A DNA stretch of 16,314 nt from an uncultured Clostridia bacterium (lineage in GTDB: Bacteria > Bacillota > Clostridia > Oscillospirales > CAG-272). Below, piece after piece: positions 919 through 8,403 of this stretch. The DNA is taken from NCBI GenBank assembly GCA_946615525.1, contig CAMOHW010000004.1, forward strand, positions 1-16,314, in the 5' to 3' direction. The position numbers were made by a program, and so were the translations under genes. How positions within the stretch are numbered: the first letter of the stretch is position 1; each line of letters opens with the position of its first letter. The notes below the pieces were generated by a model. It was not told where the DNA came from and ran no database searches. It worked only from the letters and a program-made list of their open reading frames with translations.

Positions 919-927
919 AACAAATCA

Positions 928-966
928 GGGGGCTTTCACGCAAGGTGTGAAAGCCCCCCTTTTTTA
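928..966 (+). terminator. Strong intrinsic terminator, probably bidirectional
   Basis: A perfect 12-bp stem pairs GGGGGCTTTCAC (928-939) with GTGAAAGCCCCC (947-958), with a 7-nt loop, followed by a C and then a run of T (960-965). It lies 9 nt after the LRR gene stop. Read on the - strand, the same hairpin follows the last phage gene (stop at 984) and leads into a moderately T-rich stretch (TGATTTGTTTTATT). It therefore plausibly ends both converging units. Confidence 0.92.
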
Positions 967-983
967 GGGAAACTTACGGCGGA

Positions 984-1373
984 TCAGTCCAGATGGTAGC
1001 GATCCACAATGGGTTCGACCGACGCCGGAATCATCCGGCGAATCTCGGCAAGCCCGGCAACATACTGGGCAAAAAACTGCTTGGAAAGCTCGCTGTTTTC
1101 ATCACTCACAAAAAGCGAGGCGAGCGCAAACGGGACAACGGCAAGAAAAACGTCCGAAAGCGGGAAATCGCTGTTCAAACTGTCAATTTGCGTAGCCGGG
1201 ACCCAGGTACTTTGGGGAAGATCGTTTGCCTGTCGGTAGATCTTGTCCAGCGGAGCGCATTGATTGTAGATCAATGCCAGCAGCCACAAGGCACGAGCGG
1301 AATAATCGCTGCTTGTGGGAGTTTGCTCATTGCTGAGACTGACCGCCGATTTGATGATATCGTCGTTGGTCAT
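984..1373 (-). CDS. Putative head-tail connector/adaptor protein
   Basis: The protein has 129 residues, is mostly alpha-helical in appearance and has no signal peptide. The N-terminal part (MTNDDIIKSAVSLSNEQ) and the central ALWLLALIYNQCAPLDKIYR segment are followed by hydrophobic helices around 70-95. Size, composition and place directly after the coat gene match small connector or adaptor proteins (gp6/gp4-like), which form a ring under the portal; in P22 the adaptor gene follows the coat gene. I infer the role mainly from position, as no diagnostic motif is seen. It starts at an ATG 17 nt after the coat stop, with a GGGAGGG ribosome binding site. It is the last gene of the block; the shared terminator follows. 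Confidence 0.65.
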   Translation of the reverse strand: MTNDDIIKSAVSLSNEQTPTSSDYSARALWLLALIYNQCAPLDKIYRQANDLPQSTWVPATQIDSLNSDFPLSDVFLAVVPFALASLFVSDENSELSKQFFAQYVAGLAEIRRMIPASVEPIVDRYHLD

Positions 1374-1390
1374 CCCGAAACCCTCCCGAA

Positions 1391-2230
1391 TCAGCCGCTG
1401 ACCGAAACGTCGATCACGCAGAGTTCGTTCGGGTAAACGGTTTTGGCGCCGTAGAGGTGCAGACCTTTTACCGCGTCGGCAAAGCGCGATTCGGGACGGT
1501 AGGCCTCAATTTCGGAAACCTGATCGGCAAAGGCGATGGCACGGCGGGAGCGCGCATAGCAGTAGTGGTGCAAAGCGGATGCGCCTTCATACGAAGCAAT
1601 GTTGTTGGTAACAAAGACTTTGCAACCGGCAAACTTGCCAATGCAGCCGTTTTCCAGAAAATCGCTGTCGGCGGAGATCAGATTGATCTCGGACTTCAAC
1701 AGAAGTTCTGCAACCTTGGGAGAAATCTCAAAGACGATGTCATTGGCATCGGGTACGCCGTTTTCCAGCAGTTTGGTGCGTGCTTCCAAAAGGGAGAACG
1801 CAAGGTTGGCGGTGCTGTCGTTGACAAGATCGCAACTGATCATTGTGCCGGCGGTTGCAAACAGCGAGAAGATGTATTGATCTGCTTCTTTGGCAAGCGC
1901 GTCTGCGGCGTTTTTCATTGCGGCTTCCATCAGTCCGGGAATTGCCTGGGCATGATCCACATCATCCAGCTGGAAGTTGAAGTATTTTGCGCGGTCGATC
2001 ACCAATTCAACGGCGTTTCCGCTCAATGTTTCCGGATAGGACATGCTGGAGTTGGGGGTGTAGTCGCCTACACTGATGTCGCCAAGATCCAGAATCTTTA
2101 CGCTGTTTCCTTTTTGGCGGATGTCTCCTTCATAGGCGCGGGAGCAGTTTGCAACGCCGATGTATTTTTGGTTCAGTGCTTTCTGAAGCGTTTCGCTCCA
2201 AATGGTGGGAATAAAATTGCTAACAGACAT
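1391..2230 (-). CDS. Phage major capsid (coat) protein, HK97 fold, P22-coat-like
   Basis: The protein has 279 residues. The N-terminus (FIPTIWSETLQKALNQKYIG) followed by SRAYEGDIRQKGNSVKI and a DISVGDYTPN segment is the usual opening of P22-type and related coat proteins, where an N-arm leads into the E-loop. A long helix follows (MEAAMKNAADALAKEADQYI, about 102-121), then a beta-rich axial domain and a C-terminal HLYGAKTVYPNELCVIDV strand. The length is close to a bare HK97-fold core, so there is no room for the large insertion domain of P22 coat. No protease gene is nearby and a separate scaffold gene sits directly upstream, which suggests assembly without a cleaved delta domain. RBS AAAGGA lies 9 nt before the ATG, and the gap to the scaffold gene is 33 nt. 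The coat family is well supported; the subfamily is inference. Confidence 0.9.
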   Translation of the reverse strand: MSVSNFIPTIWSETLQKALNQKYIGVANCSRAYEGDIRQKGNSVKILDLGDISVGDYTPNSSMSYPETLSGNAVELVIDRAKYFNFQLDDVDHAQAIPGLMEAAMKNAADALAKEADQYIFSLFATAGTMISCDLVNDSTANLAFSLLEARTKLLENGVPDANDIVFEISPKVAELLLKSEINLISADSDFLENGCIGKFAGCKVFVTNNIASYEGASALHHYCYARSRRAIAFADQVSEIEAYRPESRFADAVKGLHLYGAKTVYPNELCVIDVSVSG

Positions 2231-2263
2231 AGTAATAAATCCTTTCTTTTTGTGTTTTTTGAT

Positions 2264-2929
2264 TCAATGCCATTTCGGCATGGAAAGCAGAATTTGGCGG
2301 TACTGTTTTCGTACCTGTTCGGGCGTCATAGCCCGAACTTCGGCAGCCGAGAGGAACCCGGTGGAATTGCCCTCGGCAGATCCGCTGGAACGCTGATCGT
2401 TGGCGGCGTTTGTCGCTTTGGCAATTTGCCGGAGGTGTGCGTTCCGGCGCTCCATCAGCGCATAGGCGGCGGCAAGCGGTACTCCGCGTTGCACATCGTT
2501 CAAAACTGAATCCGGCAGGGAGGAAAGCGAAACATCGGGAAAGAGATCGCGAAACTCCTCCAGCTCGGTCTCCTGCTCGATCAGGGACTTGCGCGCCGAG
2601 CGGATCTCCTGGCGCAACCGGTTCAGTTCTTCCCGGAGCCGTCCAAGCTCTTGCGGATCAGGGAGATCAGCAGGCGGAACAGGCGAAAGAGTTCGGTCAG
2701 ACTGATCGTCAGTTTCAGCAGGAGTTTCCAAAGGGACTTTTTCTTCTGTTGAAGAAAGGTCATCTTTTGCGGGCTCCGGATCAAGTCCGGCGGGTTCTTC
2801 TGTTGCGGGGCATCCGGGTTGTTCTTCTTGCTCGTGTCCGCTTTCGGAAGTTTTTTCGCCTTCCGTGAGATCTTCCGAAGGATCCATTTCAGGCGGATCC
2901 AAAGGTTTTTGAAGGGTTTGCTCATCCAA
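2264..2929 (-). CDS. Capsid scaffolding protein (TTG start)
   Basis: The protein has 221 residues. Residues 1-90 are strongly acidic and Pro/Glu/Asp-rich with low complexity. About 94-127 is a heptad-rich coiled coil (ELGRLREELNRLRQEIRSAR). The C-terminal end (FLSAAEVRAMTPEQVRKQYR, then SMPKW) matches the coat-binding tail of many Bacillota phage scaffolds, which end in EV..MS..EVK..Y..I..SM..W. Scaffolds guide coat assembly and leave the procapsid during packaging. The frame begins at a TTG (2929-2927) that overlaps the portal stop by 8 nt, with GGAGGAGAGG upstream. No in-frame ATG occurs before residue 15. An ATG in the next frame overlaps the portal stop as ATGA and opens a different 100-codon frame (see findings). 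Family identity is well supported; the exact start is less certain. Confidence 0.85.
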   Translation of the reverse strand: MDEQTLQKPLDPPEMDPSEDLTEGEKTSESGHEQEEQPGCPATEEPAGLDPEPAKDDLSSTEEKVPLETPAETDDQSDRTLSPVPPADLPDPQELGRLREELNRLRQEIRSARKSLIEQETELEEFRDLFPDVSLSSLPDSVLNDVQRGVPLAAAYALMERRNAHLRQIAKATNAANDQRSSGSAEGNSTGFLSAAEVRAMTPEQVRKQYRQILLSMPKWH

Positions 2930-4451
2930 GGTTCACCTCTCCTCCTTCCGCGGTCAATTCCTGCAAGAGCGTGGCACGCTCGGGAATGCAACCGTCCGGC
3001 AGAGCTTGCAGGTATTGCCGGACCGAAATGTGGCCGCCCGAAAGCAGGTTGCCCAAAAGGGCAACGGTTGCCGAGGTCGAGTAGGTCGAATTGTCCGAGA
3101 AAACCGCCCGGGCGCGTAAGAGCTCGCCGGAGAGCAGATGGTAATCGGGGCGGCAGGCAACGGTTCCGGCGTCGGTTTCCACCGGGAGCAACCGCTCGGC
3201 GGGGGAATAGGCGCAAAGCATATCTGCCCAAATGGTTGCAAGTTCGCCAAGCGCACGGGTAAAGCGCGTGGAAACTTGTTTCAGGGCGAGCATTGAGGCG
3301 TCGCGCAGAGCAAGGATCGCGCTGGTATTGTTCGCGCGCTCGTCGCCCAGTGCCGAGTCGGTTGCGCCCATCAGATTTTTGGTAGTATTGATGACGTTGG
3401 TGATCAAGTCAAGATATCCCGGTTCGAGTTGTCCGGTGCCCACTACCTGGACGGCGTCGGCAACCGTTCCGCCACCGACCGCCGCAATCGCCTCGCCGAC
3501 CTCGTTTGACCATTCCGGAATACGCGATTTGTCGTAAACCACCTTGGAAAAAGCGGTGTCGTTCATGTGCTTCATGACCAGGGCGTATGCCGAATTGAGG
3601 TATTTCTGGTTGGGGATCAGTTCGGTGATGGGGGAGGAACCGTGGTAGGAACCTTTGCGGAGCAGCCAGTTGAACAGAACGACCGGATAGTTCCGCAAGC
3701 CGGTGTTTGCACAACGGATGATGCAGGAGCGCGTAGATTTTTCAAACATGACGCTCCCGTCCTTGCGGAAAAAGCGGATCAGGTAGGTCGCCTTGTCCGA
3801 TCCGGCCCGCTCGGGAATGGAAAAATCTCCGTCATCCGGCAGGATCTTTGCAACGGCTTCTTCGCTTGCGCCGGCTTCCAGCGCCTCACGGCGCAAATCG
3901 TTTACCGGGGCGCGGCCGGAAAGAATGATGTAATCCTGTGCCTGAATGTCGGGGGTATTGACATCGCACAGAAACAGGTTTGCTCCATCCACAACGTCGG
4001 TGCGGATCTCGCCCGAGAACGGCTGACCGTTGTTGACCGAATTATCCCACCAGCAGTAGAACACGCCGTCGCCCGAAATAGCGGCGTTGAGGAGGGCGCG
4101 GCTTGCGACCTCGGCCATTCTTCCGGTTTTCCAGCGGTAAGTTGCGTTTTGTTCCAGGAGGCGAAGCCCTTCGGAAACGGTCTTTTGCAGGGCGGAGGAA
4201 TCCAGATAGGGCAGTTTTTCGTCGGTGTAGCGAATGGAGATGTTTTGCGGAGAAATTGCACCGACCAGATAATCCACGATCCGTCGCGTCACATTAAAGA
4301 CGGGACGCGGAAGATCGCGGTCATATCCGTCCCATTGTTCTCCGCGGTAAAACCGCTCGTTTTGGCGATTGGTTTCGTAGAGGTTGATTTTTCGGTTGTA
4401 TTCCAGCCCGGATTCATATAAGGACCAGGCGGGCGTGATAGAATCGTTCAT
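2922..4451 (-). CDS. Phage portal protein
   Basis: The protein has 509 residues, a normal portal length. The N-terminal signature NERFYRGEQWDGYDRDLPRP followed by VFNVTRRIVDYLVGAI is characteristic of portal proteins of Bacillota phages. Later segments include a helical clip/stem-like region (GSSPITELIPNQKYLNSAYA, then LVMKHMNDTAF) and a tunnel-loop/crown-like helix around NTSAILALRDASMLALKQVS. Portals form the dodecameric ring at one capsid vertex through which the terminase pumps DNA. It starts at an ATG 53 nt after the preceding gene; the RBS (AGAAAGG, 12 nt upstream) is weak. The stop overlaps the scaffold start. The gene order portal-scaffold-coat agrees with the assignment. The reading frame is intact. 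Confidence 0.92.
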   Translation of the reverse strand: MNDSITPAWSLYESGLEYNRKINLYETNRQNERFYRGEQWDGYDRDLPRPVFNVTRRIVDYLVGAISPQNISIRYTDEKLPYLDSSALQKTVSEGLRLLEQNATYRWKTGRMAEVASRALLNAAISGDGVFYCWWDNSVNNGQPFSGEIRTDVVDGANLFLCDVNTPDIQAQDYIILSGRAPVNDLRREALEAGASEEAVAKILPDDGDFSIPERAGSDKATYLIRFFRKDGSVMFEKSTRSCIIRCANTGLRNYPVVLFNWLLRKGSYHGSSPITELIPNQKYLNSAYALVMKHMNDTAFSKVVYDKSRIPEWSNEVGEAIAAVGGGTVADAVQVVGTGQLEPGYLDLITNVINTTKNLMGATDSALGDERANNTSAILALRDASMLALKQVSTRFTRALGELATIWADMLCAYSPAERLLPVETDAGTVACRPDYHLLSGELLRARAVFSDNSTYSTSATVALLGNLLSGGHISVRQYLQALPDGCIPERATLLQELTAEGGEVNLG

Positions 4452-4504
4452 AAAATGGTGATGCCTTTCTGTAAAATGGAATATGGGAAGCCCGACGACA
4501 CTTG

Positions 4505-6226
4505 TTAAATATTGGCAAGCATCGAAAGGCGGTAGATCCGGGCGGAAGAAACTCCCGTAGTGCTGAACAAAAACCGCGCAAAGCGAAATCGCCCAATGGT
4601 CATGCCGTATTCAAAGAATTGCGGCTTTTCGCTTGATTGAGCCGGGGTCACAAAAGCCCGGCTTCGGCTATCGGTTTGTGTAAGGATGGTCAACTGTTGC
4701 CCGCCCGTATTGGCACAAACAGTTGTTCGCAGACTGCGCTTTGGATTTTCCGGCGAGGAAAATGCAATGTATTGACTGCGATAGGTCGCCGTGATCGGCA
4801 GACCCATGTCGGCATAGGACGTTTCATCCGGCAAAAGGATGATCCCGTCGGAAGTGCCAAATCCGACGCTCCCGTTCAACTCAAAAAACTTGGTAATGAA
4901 AAGATTGTCAAAACAGTACCATTCTTTTTGATCCCGTTTATAAACCCATACCAGCCCCTCTTCGCTCTCGGTGGGGTCGCGCATCCAAAGTTCGCCTCTG
5001 CCCGGGAACCAGGCAAGAATGCCGTTTTGGAAGATGGAGGCGGGCAAAAGTTCCAGCACCTCTTGCGAGAGCGCTTCGGGAATGCAGATGTCGGATTCGC
5101 CGGAAGGAAAGCGCAGTTCAAAAATCCCGCCGGTTTGAATGGTGACCGGACGGTCGCCGCAAAGCGCCCATCCGTTGACGGAAGAACAGCCGACGCCGCC
5201 TTCCAGGGGATAGGAGATCAGCCGATCGCCCGAAAATGCGAGTGCCCAGGCAAAGCGGTCATTCAGAGCGATCGCGCGGTCCCGGTCGCGGAAAATAGCA
5301 TGGATCGGGTGGACATCGTCGGCAAGGGGAAGGGTGTTCTCCAACGGGAAGTAAAGCGGCGATTCGATTACGGAAAAGAAACGGTTGCTCTCGCTGCTCA
5401 TTTCGGCACTCACCGGAGAGGAGTAGATCAGGTTGTGTTCCTGCGCTGTGCCGTAGAGAAAGACGGTGTTGTGCTGTGCGTCCGCAAACAAAAACGATTG
5501 GTTTAAGGCGGCAACCGTTGCGCGGCAGTTGTAGGTGTCGGCAAGCACCAGGGCAACTGTCAGGGTCCCGTGGGCGTATTGCAACGGGACGGAAAACGAA
5601 GTGGCGCCTTCCGTATAAGGGTTGGGCAAGATTTGAACGCCGTCCACCTCTACGCGCCCCAACTGTGCAACGCCAAAGGGAAGGTTGAAGGTGGTGGAAC
5701 CGGAGGTATTGTTGTATCGGATGCGGATCTTGTTTGAAAGAGCGTTGATCGGCTGATTGACTTCGCCCATTTGGACCGGATCCCACCCATCTCCGTAGAG
5801 CGGAGTGTAGCCGGCCACCTTAAAGAAGGTTTTGGATGACAGGGAAAAGTAATAAACTTCGCTTCCGTCAAACATATAGAGCGTTCCCTTGTAGAGCAGG
5901 AAGGAAACATCCCCGGTCGAGGAGGTCAGCTGCTTTCGCGGGTTCAGCTGATTTTGCCCCGGTAACTTGGCATAGAGGATTGATCCGGCCACCGCCAACA
6001 GGTAGTCCTCGTTTCCCAACGACCCCTGCCACAAACCGCGGATCGGAACGCCTAAATTATAAAGCGCTTTGGTTCCGGTGCGTTTTTCCAAAGAGCCATC
6101 CGCCGAAATGCGAAAGTTCCGCATTTCAGCGGCACTTGCTCCGGTCAACGCCGAGGTGCAACGAAGTCCGCCAAACTTGGAAATGGTTATTTTTTCGCTT
6201 GCTTTTTCGGGTCTGATTTTTGCCAT
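4505..6226 (-). CDS. Phage structural protein, candidate tail-hub/nozzle (P22 gp10- or T7 gp12-like)
   Basis: The protein has 573 residues, is beta-rich and has no signal peptide or membrane segment. Near the N-terminus, MRNFRISADGSLEKRTG (about 35-51) is a motif I associate with phage neck or stabilisation proteins. After it come many short beta-hairpin segments with a blade-like rhythm, for example YLLAVAGSILYAKL, LYMFDGSEVYYFSL, NQSFLFADAQHNTVFLYG and GILAWFPGRGELWMRD. This suggests a beta-propeller core. Podovirus nozzle/hub proteins such as T7 gp12 have such folds and close the portal after packaging. The position between terL and portal is unusual, because in P22-like phages the hub gene follows the coat and adaptor genes. 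RBS AAGGAG lies 8 nt before the ATG. It is a coding gene with high confidence; the function is a structural inference. Confidence 0.65.
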   Translation of the reverse strand: MAKIRPEKASEKITISKFGGLRCTSALTGASAAEMRNFRISADGSLEKRTGTKALYNLGVPIRGLWQGSLGNEDYLLAVAGSILYAKLPGQNQLNPRKQLTSSTGDVSFLLYKGTLYMFDGSEVYYFSLSSKTFFKVAGYTPLYGDGWDPVQMGEVNQPINALSNKIRIRYNNTSGSTTFNLPFGVAQLGRVEVDGVQILPNPYTEGATSFSVPLQYAHGTLTVALVLADTYNCRATVAALNQSFLFADAQHNTVFLYGTAQEHNLIYSSPVSAEMSSESNRFFSVIESPLYFPLENTLPLADDVHPIHAIFRDRDRAIALNDRFAWALAFSGDRLISYPLEGGVGCSSVNGWALCGDRPVTIQTGGIFELRFPSGESDICIPEALSQEVLELLPASIFQNGILAWFPGRGELWMRDPTESEEGLVWVYKRDQKEWYCFDNLFITKFFELNGSVGFGTSDGIILLPDETSYADMGLPITATYRSQYIAFSSPENPKRSLRTTVCANTGGQQLTILTQTDSRSRAFVTPAQSSEKPQFFEYGMTIGRFRFARFLFSTTGVSSARIYRLSMLANI

Positions 6227-6256
6227 ACTTTTTTCTCCTTTCTAAAAGATTTTTGT

Positions 6257-6294
6257 CCGGGCAGCACCGGCGCACGGAAGCCGGAACTGCCGGG
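6257..6294 (-). other. Intercistronic hairpin between terL and the 573-residue structural gene
   Basis: GGCAG (6260-6264) pairs with CTGCC (6287-6291), and CCGGC (6267-6271) with GCCGG (6280-6284). A 2x2 internal loop separates the two stems, and there are two more outer C-G pairs beyond a G-G mismatch. No immediate T-run follows on the - strand, so this is not a typical terminator. It could set transcript ends, stability or the ratio of packaging to structural protein. Confidence 0.5.
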
Positions 6295-6299
6295 AGGGC

Positions 6300-7622
6300 T
6301 TATAAAAGCCCCTTTTTCGGCGGCGTGAAAAACCGGAAGTTTTTGTCGGGTATCGCCTCGGGGCGGTAGGTCGCGTAGCGACTCATGACGGCGTAGCGCA
6401 GGGCCTCGGGCGCGTGGGTGATCGCGTGGGGTTCACCTGCGGCGTCCTCCGGCGTTCCCGCGTCGCAGAGCAGGGCGGGGAGACAGCGGATCAGCTCCCG
6501 GCAGTCCTCGCTGATGCGCAGATACGGACCATCTCCGGGGGAAAGAAATTGCCGCAGAATGCGCCAGCCCGGCACCCTTCGGTTATCGGCGGCGGACATG
6601 GGCGGCATCCCGGGTACCGCCTGCATGATCTCAAATCCGCTTCTGCCGGTATCCTGCCGCCGGTTCCAAAGGTCGGGGGAGGAGACCACATACTCCACGG
6701 CTTGCCCCCTGCAGAGTTCGGATACCGCCAGACCCGCCTCGCGCAAAGTCAACCCCGGGCGGCAGATCTCCCGAATCACAAACAGATTTCCACACCTGTC
6801 CACACCCAAAAGCAGCGCTGCCAGCATATCGAACCCGTAGTCCAGTGCCGCAAAACGGCGAATTTCGACAGGTATTTTTGCAGGTGGAAGAACATGGATC
6901 TCAATTTGAAACTCGGGAAAGAACTGCCCCTCAAACACGTCCCATCTGCCCTCCAACCATGCCTCTCGGAGCTTTTTGGGCAGACTTTCGAGCTGTCGGA
7001 CATAGTCGGGGTCGGCTTTTTGCAGGACGGGGTTGTCCCAAACGCGCGCCGGAATAAAGCGATAGTCCTCGGGGTCCTCATTGGCGTGAAAAACGCGGTC
7101 CACAAACAACCGCTTGACCCAAGCGTGTCCCACGCCGCCGGGATTGCAGGTCAAATACATTCTTCGGGGGAAGTCACGGGCGCCTCGCAGACAGGCCTTA
7201 AAAACAGAAAACTGATATTCGCTCAGTTGCGTTGCCTCGTCGATGGCGATAATGTCAAATTCCTGCCCCTGATACCGCAGAACATCGCGGTTGGCGGAGC
7301 AGAACCCGAAGGTGATCGAACTGCCGTTCGGCAGCGTGAGCCGCTTTTCGGCCTCATGCCAAAAAAGTGCCCCGGGGTATTCTGAAAGGAGGGGAAGCAG
7401 GTGGTTTTGCCGCAGTTCTCCATAGGAGCGCCGCACCAAAAGACAGCGAATGCCGGGGTAGCGCAGGCAAAGACCGATCAGTTTGCGCCGCAGAGCCCAG
7501 GATTTTCCGCCGCCGCGTGCTCCGCCGTAGGCGGTATAGCGCGCTTTGGAGGCAAAAAACTTCTTTTGCTGTTCGTTTGGCACACCTGCAATGTGCAGGA
7601 TTTTGGAAGCTTTGGGATTCAT
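6300..7622 (-). CDS. terL: Phage terminase large subunit (packaging ATPase and nuclease)
   Basis: The protein has 440 residues, a usual TerL length. The ATPase domain shows Walker A GGARGGGKS (33-41), an adenine/arginine-type RRSYGELR segment near 64-71, Walker B with catalytic Glu FDIIAIDEATQ (D128-E129), and a coupling-motif-like LTCNPGG near 157-163. The RNase H-like nuclease domain shows ALDYGFD (first acidic residue D261) and SSPDLW (second, D317). The third position falls in HAPEALRY, where E406 stands in place of the usual Asp of the xDALRY motif. TerL cuts concatemeric DNA and pumps it through the portal. The ATG overlaps the terS stop as ATGA, indicating translational coupling. The frame is intact. 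Confidence 0.95.
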   Translation of the reverse strand: MNPKASKILHIAGVPNEQQKKFFASKARYTAYGGARGGGKSWALRRKLIGLCLRYPGIRCLLVRRSYGELRQNHLLPLLSEYPGALFWHEAEKRLTLPNGSSITFGFCSANRDVLRYQGQEFDIIAIDEATQLSEYQFSVFKACLRGARDFPRRMYLTCNPGGVGHAWVKRLFVDRVFHANEDPEDYRFIPARVWDNPVLQKADPDYVRQLESLPKKLREAWLEGRWDVFEGQFFPEFQIEIHVLPPAKIPVEIRRFAALDYGFDMLAALLLGVDRCGNLFVIREICRPGLTLREAGLAVSELCRGQAVEYVVSSPDLWNRRQDTGRSGFEIMQAVPGMPPMSAADNRRVPGWRILRQFLSPGDGPYLRISEDCRELIRCLPALLCDAGTPEDAAGEPHAITHAPEALRYAVMSRYATYRPEAIPDKNFRFFTPPKKGLL

Positions 7623-7999
7623 TCGCCGTCTTCCGCAATGTCGTGTTCAAATACCAGTCGGACTTCGCCGCAATCGGCAAGCGAGGAAGATGCCGCAGCT
7701 TTTTCACTGTAAGCCAACCGCCGTTTCAGGTATGCCCCAACGACTGTTGGGGAAAGGACGGGCGAGTTGAGCGCTTCGTCCTCCATCACGGCGGCAAGAT
7801 AGTCGGCGTCGGCGGGATGGGTCAGGCGTAATTGATCAACTGCATCTATTCCGCAACCCATCCAGCGGCAAAAGCCGGCAAGGTTGGGAAATCGCCAGTT
7901 CTTCTTTTCCTCAACACGGCAGGATTGAAGATACTGTCCGATTTTCTGTTTCAACCGTCCGGCAGTTGCCGCTTCTTCTAAACTTTGCTTTTTTGCCAT
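7619..7999 (-). CDS. terS: Probable phage terminase small subunit
   Basis: The protein has 126 residues. The start is the ATG at 7999 (MAKKQSLEEA), preceded by AAGAAAGGAG about 11 nt upstream; the frame is open further upstream but without a better site. The sequence is helical, with a short basic N-terminus, then WRFPNLAGFCRWMGCGIDAV (about 46-65), a pattern seen in DNA-binding small terminases, and a C-terminal helix VVGAYLKRRLAY before an acidic tail. Small terminases recognise the packaging site and regulate TerL. The assignment rests on size, on the FPNLAGFCRW-type segment and on position directly before terL, to which it is coupled through ATGA. The region upstream holds four phased TGGCACA repeats, a possible packaging site or operator. 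Confidence 0.7.
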   Translation of the reverse strand: MAKKQSLEEAATAGRLKQKIGQYLQSCRVEEKKNWRFPNLAGFCRWMGCGIDAVDQLRLTHPADADYLAAVMEDEALNSPVLSPTVVGAYLKRRLAYSEKAAASSSLADCGEVRLVFEHDIAEDGE

Positions 8000-8054
8000 G
8001 CGTTTGCGTTCTCCTTTCTTGTTTGAAATCGCCGGTTTTTCTCCGTGCAATCGC

Positions 8055-8060
8055 ATTTTA
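8055..8060 (-). promoter_or_regulatory. Possible -10 element of the phage cassette promoter
   Basis: On the - strand this reads TAAAAT. With 17-nt spacing the -35 position would read CAGTTT, which is poor. The region from about -24 to -59 is filled by four TGGCACA repeats. If this is the promoter, it is weak on its own and would probably depend on a protein bound to the repeats. This is a tentative reading. Confidence 0.3.
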
Positions 8061-8071
8061 CTTCATTTTTT

Positions 8072-8107
8072 TGTGCCAAACTGTGCCATTTGTGCCATCC
8101 TGTGCCA
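8072..8107 (-). repeat. Four phased TGTGCCA/TGGCACA direct repeats upstream of terS
   Basis: TGTGCCA occurs on the + strand at 8072-8078, 8082-8088, 8091-8097 and 8101-8107, with periods of 10, 9 and 10 nt, close to one DNA helical turn. Read towards the phage genes the unit is TGGCACA, about 75 nt upstream of the terS start. Phased direct repeats of this kind are typical of iterons, operators, activator arrays or small-terminase recognition sites. The repeat itself is directly visible; its function is inference. Confidence 0.85.
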
Positions 8108-8109
8108 TC

Positions 8110-8284
8110 TTTCGCACAATCTTCATCGCCCCTCTGTGTTGCTCCTCGACTCGGGCGGCTTAACGTACATTAGGTACGCCTGCGCCGCCACTCGCTCGGT
8201 GCGCCTTGATGCGCTCGAATCTTGTGCGAAAGCAAGTTTCGCACAATCTTCGTCGCATTTCTGCGTTGCTCCTCAAAAGCGGCT
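8110..8284. repeat. Palindromic intergenic repeat (one full unit and one partial copy)
   Basis: A 122-bp unit (8110-8231) is bounded by perfect 10-bp inverted repeats: TTTCGCACAA at 8110-8119 and TTGTGCGAAA at 8222-8231. It contains an internal hairpin with GGCGGC (8154-8159) pairing GCCGCC (8184-8189) and, inside, CGTAC (8164-8168) pairing GTACG (8174-8178). After GCAAG, a partial direct copy begins at 8237 and runs to about 8284; 32 of 37 bases match between 8111-8147 and 8238-8274. The right TTGTGCGAAA and the second copy's TTTCGCACAA (8237-8246) also form a stem with a 5-nt loop, extended by CGAA/TTCG. It has no coding capacity. It resembles a dispersed palindromic or MITE-like element; copy number elsewhere is unknown. 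Confidence 0.75.
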
Positions 8285-8321
8285 CGCGGATTTTCTTTTT
8301 TAAAATCCCTTTCGCCAAATA

Positions 8322-8350
8322 TTGACTTTTTCTTTTGCCTATGATATAAT
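8322..8350 (+). promoter_or_regulatory. Near-consensus extended -10 sigma-A promoter for the miaB-mutS-mutL operon
   Basis: TTGACT (8322-8327) and TATAAT (8345-8350) are separated by exactly 17 nt, with TG at 8342-8343 giving an extended -10. Transcription would start near 8357 and leave a leader of about 47 nt before the miaB ATG, with a GAGGTGAG ribosome binding site (8393-8400). No terminator follows within the window, so this promoter could serve every gene to the right edge. Confidence 0.92.
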
Positions 8351-8403
8351 AAAACAGAATATAGTCTTTTATAGAAAAGCCATTCGGAAACCGAGGTGAG
8401 AAC

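Follow-up and report, generated by a model that had tools for sequence, protein, structure and literature searches.

Phage head genes lying between the chromosomal genes of a bacterium raise the question of whether they are what is left of a virus, a satellite in need of a helper, or a structure that the cell has made its own. Here, we focus on such a set in an uncultured Clostridia bacterium. The window, by which we mean the whole stretch of 16,314 nucleotides that was analyzed, is contig C4 with both of its ends included, and the leftward view in this genome stops at position 1. From the listing of open reading frames (ORFs) in the window, a cassette of seven open genes (7.0 kb) is evident at positions 984-7999 of the minus strand, with the reading order small terminase-like protein, large terminase, nozzle-like protein, portal, scaffold, coat and connector. 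None of the seven ORFs is missing or interrupted, as the preliminary description of this DNA had claimed. The features are as follows:

7619..7999, minus strand: small terminase-like protein (TerS), 126 aa, with a longer ORF extending to 8056; named from its position upstream of the large terminase, a weak PF16677 match and an aligned family in the genus
6300..7622, minus strand: large terminase (TerL), 440 aa; named from PF03237, phrog_979, invariant motifs and a match to the solved TerL 5oe8
4505..6226, minus strand: probable nozzle/head-closure protein, 573 aa; named from homology to the virion structural protein of the Pagevirus Pookie
2922..4451, minus strand: portal protein, P22-like, 509 aa; named from PF16510 and phrog_156
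2264..2929, minus strand: probable scaffolding protein, 221 aa, overlapping the portal stop with its start; named from lying between portal and coat, the P22 arrangement
1391..2230, minus strand: major capsid (coat) protein, 279 aa; named from phrog_267 and PF19821
984..1373, minus strand: probable head-tail connector/adaptor, 129 aa; named from its position, as P22 gp4, and an aligned family of 29
927..959, both strands: terminator-like hairpin between the cassette and a convergent LRR gene
8000..8403, no strand: gap between the cassette and miaB, holding two copies of a 38-nt repeat (8110-8147 and 8237-8274)

Structural genes derived from tailed phages are a trait of gene transfer agents (GTAs), and here they are recognized from the profile matches of TerL (PF03237, 1.8e-11; phrog_979, 7.8e-48), the portal (the P22-like PF16510, 3.6e-17; phrog_156, 1.2e-29) and the coat protein (phrog_267, 1.9e-46; PF19821, 6.6e-7). 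In TerL, a GGxxGGGKS motif and aspartates 261, 317 and 393, which we take to be the Walker A motif and the nuclease residues, respectively, are invariant among 26 aligned sequences, and the family profile matches 5oe8 at 4.1e-6. Pfam gave nothing for the nozzle-like protein at E 1, and the single PHROG match of the window's own copy is phrog_5107, labelled amidase (115 residues, 1.6e-8). The family of this protein can be aligned over almost all of its length with a virion protein of the Bacillus phage Pookie (E 1.1e-46), and phrog_3287, a "virion structural protein", is matched by an outgroup member; the resemblance to P22 gp10 falls short of significance (E 0.061 over 52 columns). The small terminase-like protein is so named from its position and from a match to GP3_package (PF16677) at E 0.0027, which lies under the curated cut-off. 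No convincing family match was found for the scaffold-position protein in Pfam or PHROG, nor a profile match between the connector and P22 gp4 (E 0.15). These two names are probable ones, which follow from position in the P22 order (TerS-TerL-portal-scaffold-coat-adaptor-closure) that outgroup relatives match. Compared with outgroup loci (L115 and L257 among them), the nozzle gene of the cassette has moved and now stands between TerL and portal. A defence system was also considered and rejected, with PADLOC matching none of eight proteins at E 0.01.

The same cassette recurs across the genus. A cassette-type portal was found in 32 of 35 genus genomes with no internal stop in any match, and TerL in 30 of the 34 other genomes as well as in the window's own. 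The portal is absent from G019 (91% complete) and G021 (84% complete), and G014 holds only a diverged relative of it. All seven frames are open in 21 of the 24 genus loci compared, and these 21 share one gene set; the remaining three are cut by contig ends, including G007, whose TerS ends at the contig end (two short loci, L065 and L080, are also cut and were excluded from this count). The location of the cassette is less constant. A search of relatives for the seven-gene order at miaB had been suggested. The order is kept open across the genus; the miaB site is shared only by the window's genome and its sister species G028 among 23 genus loci compared. Since position differs between subclades, miaB was rejected as a fixed home.

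A functional subset of genes kept entire, unlike the random losses of decay, was another claim of the preliminary description, and the open frames are joined in its favor by purifying selection and by co-divergence with the host. Each of the seven genes has a dN/dS below 1, with an overall range of 0.10-0.57: 0.10-0.16 for TerL, 0.10-0.17 for portal and 0.21-0.34 for nozzle (eight pairs each), and 0.11-0.26 for coat, 0.21-0.34 for connector, 0.15-0.37 for TerS and 0.42-0.57 for scaffold (six pairs each). MutS has lower values (0.03-0.12) in every comparison. The cassette dS of 0.55-1.51 is partly saturated; between the window's genome and G028, TerL and portal each have a value of 0.55, and MutS has 0.46. 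With the MutS frame of each genome picked by its match to MutS, Mantel correlations with MutS are 0.72 for TerL, 0.84 for portal and 0.81 for nozzle, values reached in none of 2000 permutations each. A concatenated tree of six cassette proteins from 21 genomes has 12 of 18 splits in common with MutS (relabelled mean 0.34, maximum 4), and of the 11 MutS splits with support of at least 0.9, ten recur in it. The GC3 of TerL and portal tracks that of MutS across 22 genomes (r 0.83), averaging 0.05 below it. These data indicate that the cassette has been transmitted vertically with the cell genome. The coat signal is weaker, with a Mantel r of 0.42 that becomes 0.37 (110/2000) once the window's clade is left out and a tree recovering 4 of the 11 well-supported MutS splits. 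As the MutS tree also lacks 3 of the 14 splits that are well supported in the concatenated tree, some exchange is possible.

How does this bear on an ordinary or decaying prophage? Homologous genes do occur in phage-like contigs, for example L335 (from a 31.7-kb contig, TerL 49% identical), and among the 133 flank ORFs scanned (of 218 listed) at least one has a match to an integrase family, with a few more matching endolysin or repressor families, as judged from the 25 of 97 matched families listed. Against this stand the open frames, the identical gene set of the uncut loci and vertical descent, and prophage was rejected as highly improbable. The nine IMG/VR loci returned with a TerL identity of at least 58% are all on contigs of 4.2-10.1 kb, a weak point in the same direction as such short contigs may be fragments. 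Furthermore, Pfam and PHROG searches found none of the genes expected of a temperate prophage (integrase, repressor, replication, lysis) among the seven cassette proteins and the LRR neighbor, the left side being visible as far as position 1, and the genes of the right flank look like housekeeping genes.

The repeats and terminator described earlier were found as well. Two terminator-like sites are present in 850-1100 where 0.5 would be expected, with the hairpin at 927-959 readable on both strands, and the repeats at 8110 and 8237 are 87% alike; a pattern of the repeat with five free positions has no further match in the window's 61%-complete assembly. In the gap between cassette and miaB, the sole promoter-like site (8322-8350) points toward miaB, and no cassette promoter was identified there.

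A satellite relying on genes elsewhere had been offered as another option; here it would make its own head and borrow lysis, tail and mobility from a helper phage. Partner genes that do not adjoin the cassette and a position varying by subclade would suit it. However, the cassette has no integrase, regulator or mobility gene, follows the host tree and is found in nearly every genus genome (32/35), and we rejected the satellite as having very little probability.

Lysis or tail genes elsewhere in the genome were sought with two holin profiles, one spike-base profile and one coiled-coil profile, built from larger relatives. In these incomplete assemblies, no partner common to the genus was found by the profiles used: the spike-base protein is missing from all 25 genus genomes searched, and the coiled-coil protein from those other than G002 and G014. 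These absences, together with the related cassette L106, next to which no nozzle gene is labelled, would fit a domesticated head particle with a purpose other than gene transfer, be it killing relatives (as PBSX does), removing or protecting DNA, or serving as an empty shell. We regard this as unlikely. The TerL motifs are invariant and constraint on TerL and portal is among the strongest in the cassette, which suggests that DNA loading matters, and PBSX acts as a tailocin whereas the cassette shows no tail genes.

The open order throughout the genus, the dN/dS below 1, the co-divergence and the lack of a shared lysis or spike gene among the hits of the profiles used together argue for a domesticated GTA-type particle over a remnant or a satellite. 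This supports the domesticated, GTA-like packaging particle of the preliminary description, for which we infer gene transfer. GTAs in general lack genes for autonomous replication, integration or excision, enclose host DNA with at most part of their own genes, and are induced in a small fraction of cells. We consider it rather likely that the cassette is what remains of a small podovirus, domesticated and passed on vertically, and that selection keeps it to build a DNA-packaging particle that works like a GTA; likewise that this particle probably packages the bacterium's own DNA with no virus being made. TerS and TerL would load DNA via the portal into a head assembled from coat protein upon the scaffold, and the connector and nozzle would then close it. 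Since the cassette lacks genes for replication, integration and excision, fragments of the host chromosome would be what is packaged; for its release and attachment the particle would depend on other genes or on ordinary cell death. Counting against the GTA reading are the missing portal of G019 and G021 and the diverged one of G014, the weaker coat co-divergence with its possible exchange, the partly saturated dS, a dN/dS above that of MutS, the lower GC3 and the scarcity of strong TerL matches in the family of Fournierella. A further point against it is that no lysis, spike or regulator gene has been recognized in the genus to account for release and delivery. Tentatively, the cassette could encode a minimal lysis-free and spike-free particle of seven head genes, kept genus-wide and working with no release or attachment genes of its own; it would then be either the smallest known GTA, set free when cells die in the ordinary course, or a shell whose packaged DNA has a new use in the cell.

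Candidate packaging genes can be offered in a lineage of gut Clostridia besides Faecalibacterium, in a cassette family that is inherited and selected and not the product of recent infections. The cassette illustrates the extent to which a phage head cluster can shrink, and gene transfer among gut bacteria of this genus becomes directly testable.

The closest published system, matched by its description, is operon I of the Faecalibacterium GTA (FpGTA), whose particles are reported to be 40 nm in size with approximately 9 kb of DNA inside (Borodovich et al., 2026, PMC12946183). According to that description, the podovirus-like operon I comprises ten ORFs over 10.5 kb and occurs in all 12 Faecalibacterium genomes examined, while another operon, encoding tail fibre, holin and endolysin, was detected in 5 of the 12 and not in the other 7. 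In Faecalibacterium prausnitzii ATCC 27766, the coat and portal have the accessions RCH50849.1 and RCH50851.1, respectively. Host DNA was reported in particles from several gut Clostridia, with a candidate GTA operon given for Faecalibacterium only (PMC12946183). The FpGTA small terminase is described as having no DNA-binding domain (PMC12946183), and the same is reported of RcGTA. Like operon I as described, the cassette comprises TerS, TerL, portal, scaffold and coat, with the first and fourth assigned chiefly from where they lie, has no replication genes and belongs to gut Clostridia. In contrast, it has seven ORFs in 7.0 kb and is found in another genus, in which no lysis or attachment operon was detected with the holin, spike-base and coiled-coil profiles from other relatives. 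FpGTA particles were seen, whereas the cassette is known here from its genes and was compared with FpGTA by the latter's description. Fournierella's family offers a further comparison: L257, the best fit of 15 loci from it, has some ten ORFs in a homologous cluster of 10.3 kb and fits the published description of operon I, and a strong TerL match was found in only 20 of 119 genomes of this family. Larger clusters are also carried by relatives recorded as strains, Fournierella massiliensis An912 (L132) and bacterium 1XD42-1 (L121). Among phages, the nozzle protein is homologous to the virion structural protein of Pagevirus, the Bacillus podoviruses. Unlike podoviruses with the P22-type head order, the cassette is devoid of genes for needle, spike, ejection, replication, lysis or integration, and its nozzle gene has changed position. 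As for the alphaproteobacterial and Brachyspira GTAs (Kogay et al., 2022, PMC9662315), they share with the cassette phage-derived genes and vertical inheritance. They differ from it in that its TerL and coat are of the podovirus-type group and its gene transfer is a prediction, and this podovirus-type TerL and coat make it likely that the cassette arose separately from them.

Between positions 984 and 7999, on the minus strand, lie seven genes in which every frame is open, as the preliminary description of a phage head and packaging cassette had stated. The window runs along contig C4 from end to end, and the assembly is 61% complete. The gene names proposed at that time stand to different degrees. 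The large terminase (TerL), portal and coat are securely predicted from their profiles, and the nozzle is probable: this 573-aa protein aligns with a Pagevirus virion protein over almost its entire length, while its sole direct PHROG match is to a family labelled amidase, covering 115 residues. For the small terminase (TerS), scaffold and connector, the names are drawn mainly from gene position, which in outgroup relatives follows the P22 order. The features in and around the cassette are as follows, including both copies of the repeat that had been reported upstream.

178-918: BspA-type leucine-rich-repeat gene (PF13306), left neighbour of the cassette
984-7999, minus strand: the seven cassette genes
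8110-8147 and 8237-8274: two copies of a 38-nt repeat, 87% alike, in the gap between cassette and miaB

The right neighbour, miaB, was recognized by its Pfam domains, and the genes beyond it are presumably ylbF, mutS, mutL and tgt.

The cassette is widespread in the genus. TerL and coat are each present in the window's own genome and in 30 of the 34 others (the coat of genome G014 being a diverged copy), and portal is present in 33 of 35, 32 of them with the cassette type and G014 with a diverged one only. Occurrence in one strain with frameshifts in close relatives, which the preliminary description had associated with an ordinary prophage or its remnant, is not what the genus displays, and no TerL, coat or portal match across its genomes contains an internal stop. 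Seven open frames are found in 21 of the 24 genus loci compared, a count that leaves out the cut loci L065 and L080; the other three (G007, G016 and G028) are truncated at contig ends. In two of the 21, one frame is open but has none of the start codons ATG, GTG and TTG where its start is expected (TerS of G010, portal of G003). The gene order anticipated at miaB recurs in relatives; among the genus loci compared, adjacency to miaB is seen in two genomes.

Distances of all seven proteins correlate with those of the host protein MutS across 21-22 genomes (TerS 0.54, TerL 0.72, nozzle 0.81, portal 0.84, scaffold 0.76, coat 0.42 and connector 0.70; 0/2000 permutations each), and with 27 genomes the value for portal is 0.82. 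When the window's clade is removed, coat drops to 0.37 (110/2000) and TerS to 0.38 (11/2000), while the other five remain at 0/2000. A tree of six concatenated cassette proteins from 21 genomes has 12 of 18 splits in common with MutS, against a mean of 0.34 and a maximum of 4 after relabelling. It contains ten of the 11 MutS splits supported at 0.9 or above, and the MutS tree lacks three of the 14 splits that are well supported in the concatenated tree; a tree of the coat by itself has 4 of those 11 MutS splits. GC3 of TerL and portal also tracks that of MutS (r 0.83, 22 genomes), with a mean 0.05 lower. Because the cassette co-diverges with MutS and its neighbours are common only within subclades, we conclude that its descent is vertical and its genomic position has moved. 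Some cassettes have DNA-repair genes close by: the window cassette lies near mutS and mutL, and four others in the genus (L046, L047, L051 and L054) lie near recX and recA, on the connector side and within about 3 kb. A BspA-type gene is found beyond the connector end at six genus loci (the window, L041, L042, L055, L059 and L063). Measurement of dN/dS for each gene, as had been proposed, gave 0.10-0.17 for TerL and portal (eight pairs) and a highest cassette value of 0.57, for scaffold; MutS, at 0.03-0.12, is below the cassette genes in every comparison. Domestication of the cassette is well supported.

Beyond these genomes, at least 549 relatives were collected by TerL alignment, and the best 80 named contigs among them, a set partly overlapping the genus genomes, were analysed. 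Among these 80, at least 6 kb past TerL is available in 55, of which 19 have the same seven-gene order (three without a labelled scaffold) and 36 have other arrangements. Locus L106 (2427-8136) is a six-gene cassette in which no nozzle gene is labelled; other genes occupy about 6.4 kb after it. In genome G052, TerL (C3:82531-83757; L067) and the portal, scaffold, coat and nozzle genes (C19; L068) are on different contigs, which suggests a split cluster. At L137, L146, L147, L151, L153 and L159, TerL has no other labelled cassette genes adjoining, although diverged ones may be missed.

A fuller version is seen in L115 (8644-20021, about 11.4 kb), a larger relative set between host genes, where genes for ThrE exporters and for an RNase-R-like protein bracket the cluster. 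After its head genes come a 135-aa protein without a family match, read as a holin, an endolysin of the Amidase_3-LysM type, a spike-like protein rich in glycine and a coiled-coil protein, and an S24-type repressor is on the opposite strand. No integrase was found among the nine flank proteins scanned. Two related loci have TerL 88-90% alike: L113, whose last gene was read in part only, and L114, whose contig stops past the coat gene. The ThrE-type neighbour is upstream in all three.

Partner genes of this kind, which the preliminary description had suggested might lie elsewhere, were searched for in the window's genus, in incomplete assemblies from which diverged genes could escape. The L115-type holin profile matched in 0/35 genomes, Phage_holin_5_2 in two (G020 and G027), the spike-base profile in 0/25 searched, and the coiled-coil profile in two of 35 (G002 and G014), on contigs of their diverged elements. 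These second elements (L064 in G014:C45, L079 in G002:C16) have portal at 28% and coat at 38% and 33% identity, respectively, with the coiled-coil match 7-8 kb away on the same contig. Around the cassettes, 133 of 218 flank ORFs were scanned against PHROGs and 97 families matched; the matches listed, for 25 of these families, include one to an integrase family and a few to endolysin and repressor families.

As for phage origin, the longer phage-like IMG/VR contigs (19-53 kb) among the matches listed have TerL identity of at most 53%, and the nine listed loci at 58% or above are on contigs of 4.2-10.1 kb. One of these longer contigs, L335 (TerL 49%), encodes portal, scaffold, coat, connector and nozzle as well, with a large protein downstream. 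The highest TerL identity among phage records, 50.7%, is to a human faecal phage scaffold, MT836592.1 (L081), an unannotated record that encodes a collagen-like protein besides TerL, portal, scaffold, coat and nozzle.

In the family of Fournierella, which we take to be Ruminococcaceae, TerL matches at E 1e-60 or better in 20 of 119 genomes. Fifteen of these TerL loci carry a labelled portal in 12 cases and a labelled nozzle in eight; the fullest, L257, has about ten ORFs, chosen by hand, over 10.3 kb. The gene transfer agent (GTA) of Faecalibacterium, FpGTA, forms particles of about 40 nm with about 9 kb of DNA; its operon I encodes TerS, TerL, portal, scaffold and coat, and tail fibre and lysis genes are in operon II. 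The published account leaves open whether FpGTA transfers DNA (Borodovich et al., 2026; PMC12946183). Compared by published description only, the L257 cluster fits FpGTA operon I (PMC12946183). By title and abstract, the open-licence literature searched on GTAs in Clostridia, the rumen and related groups described no other such cassette. Judging from sequence, the function of the cassette would most likely be a GTA-like role, and relative to the recently described type it is a new, reduced form.
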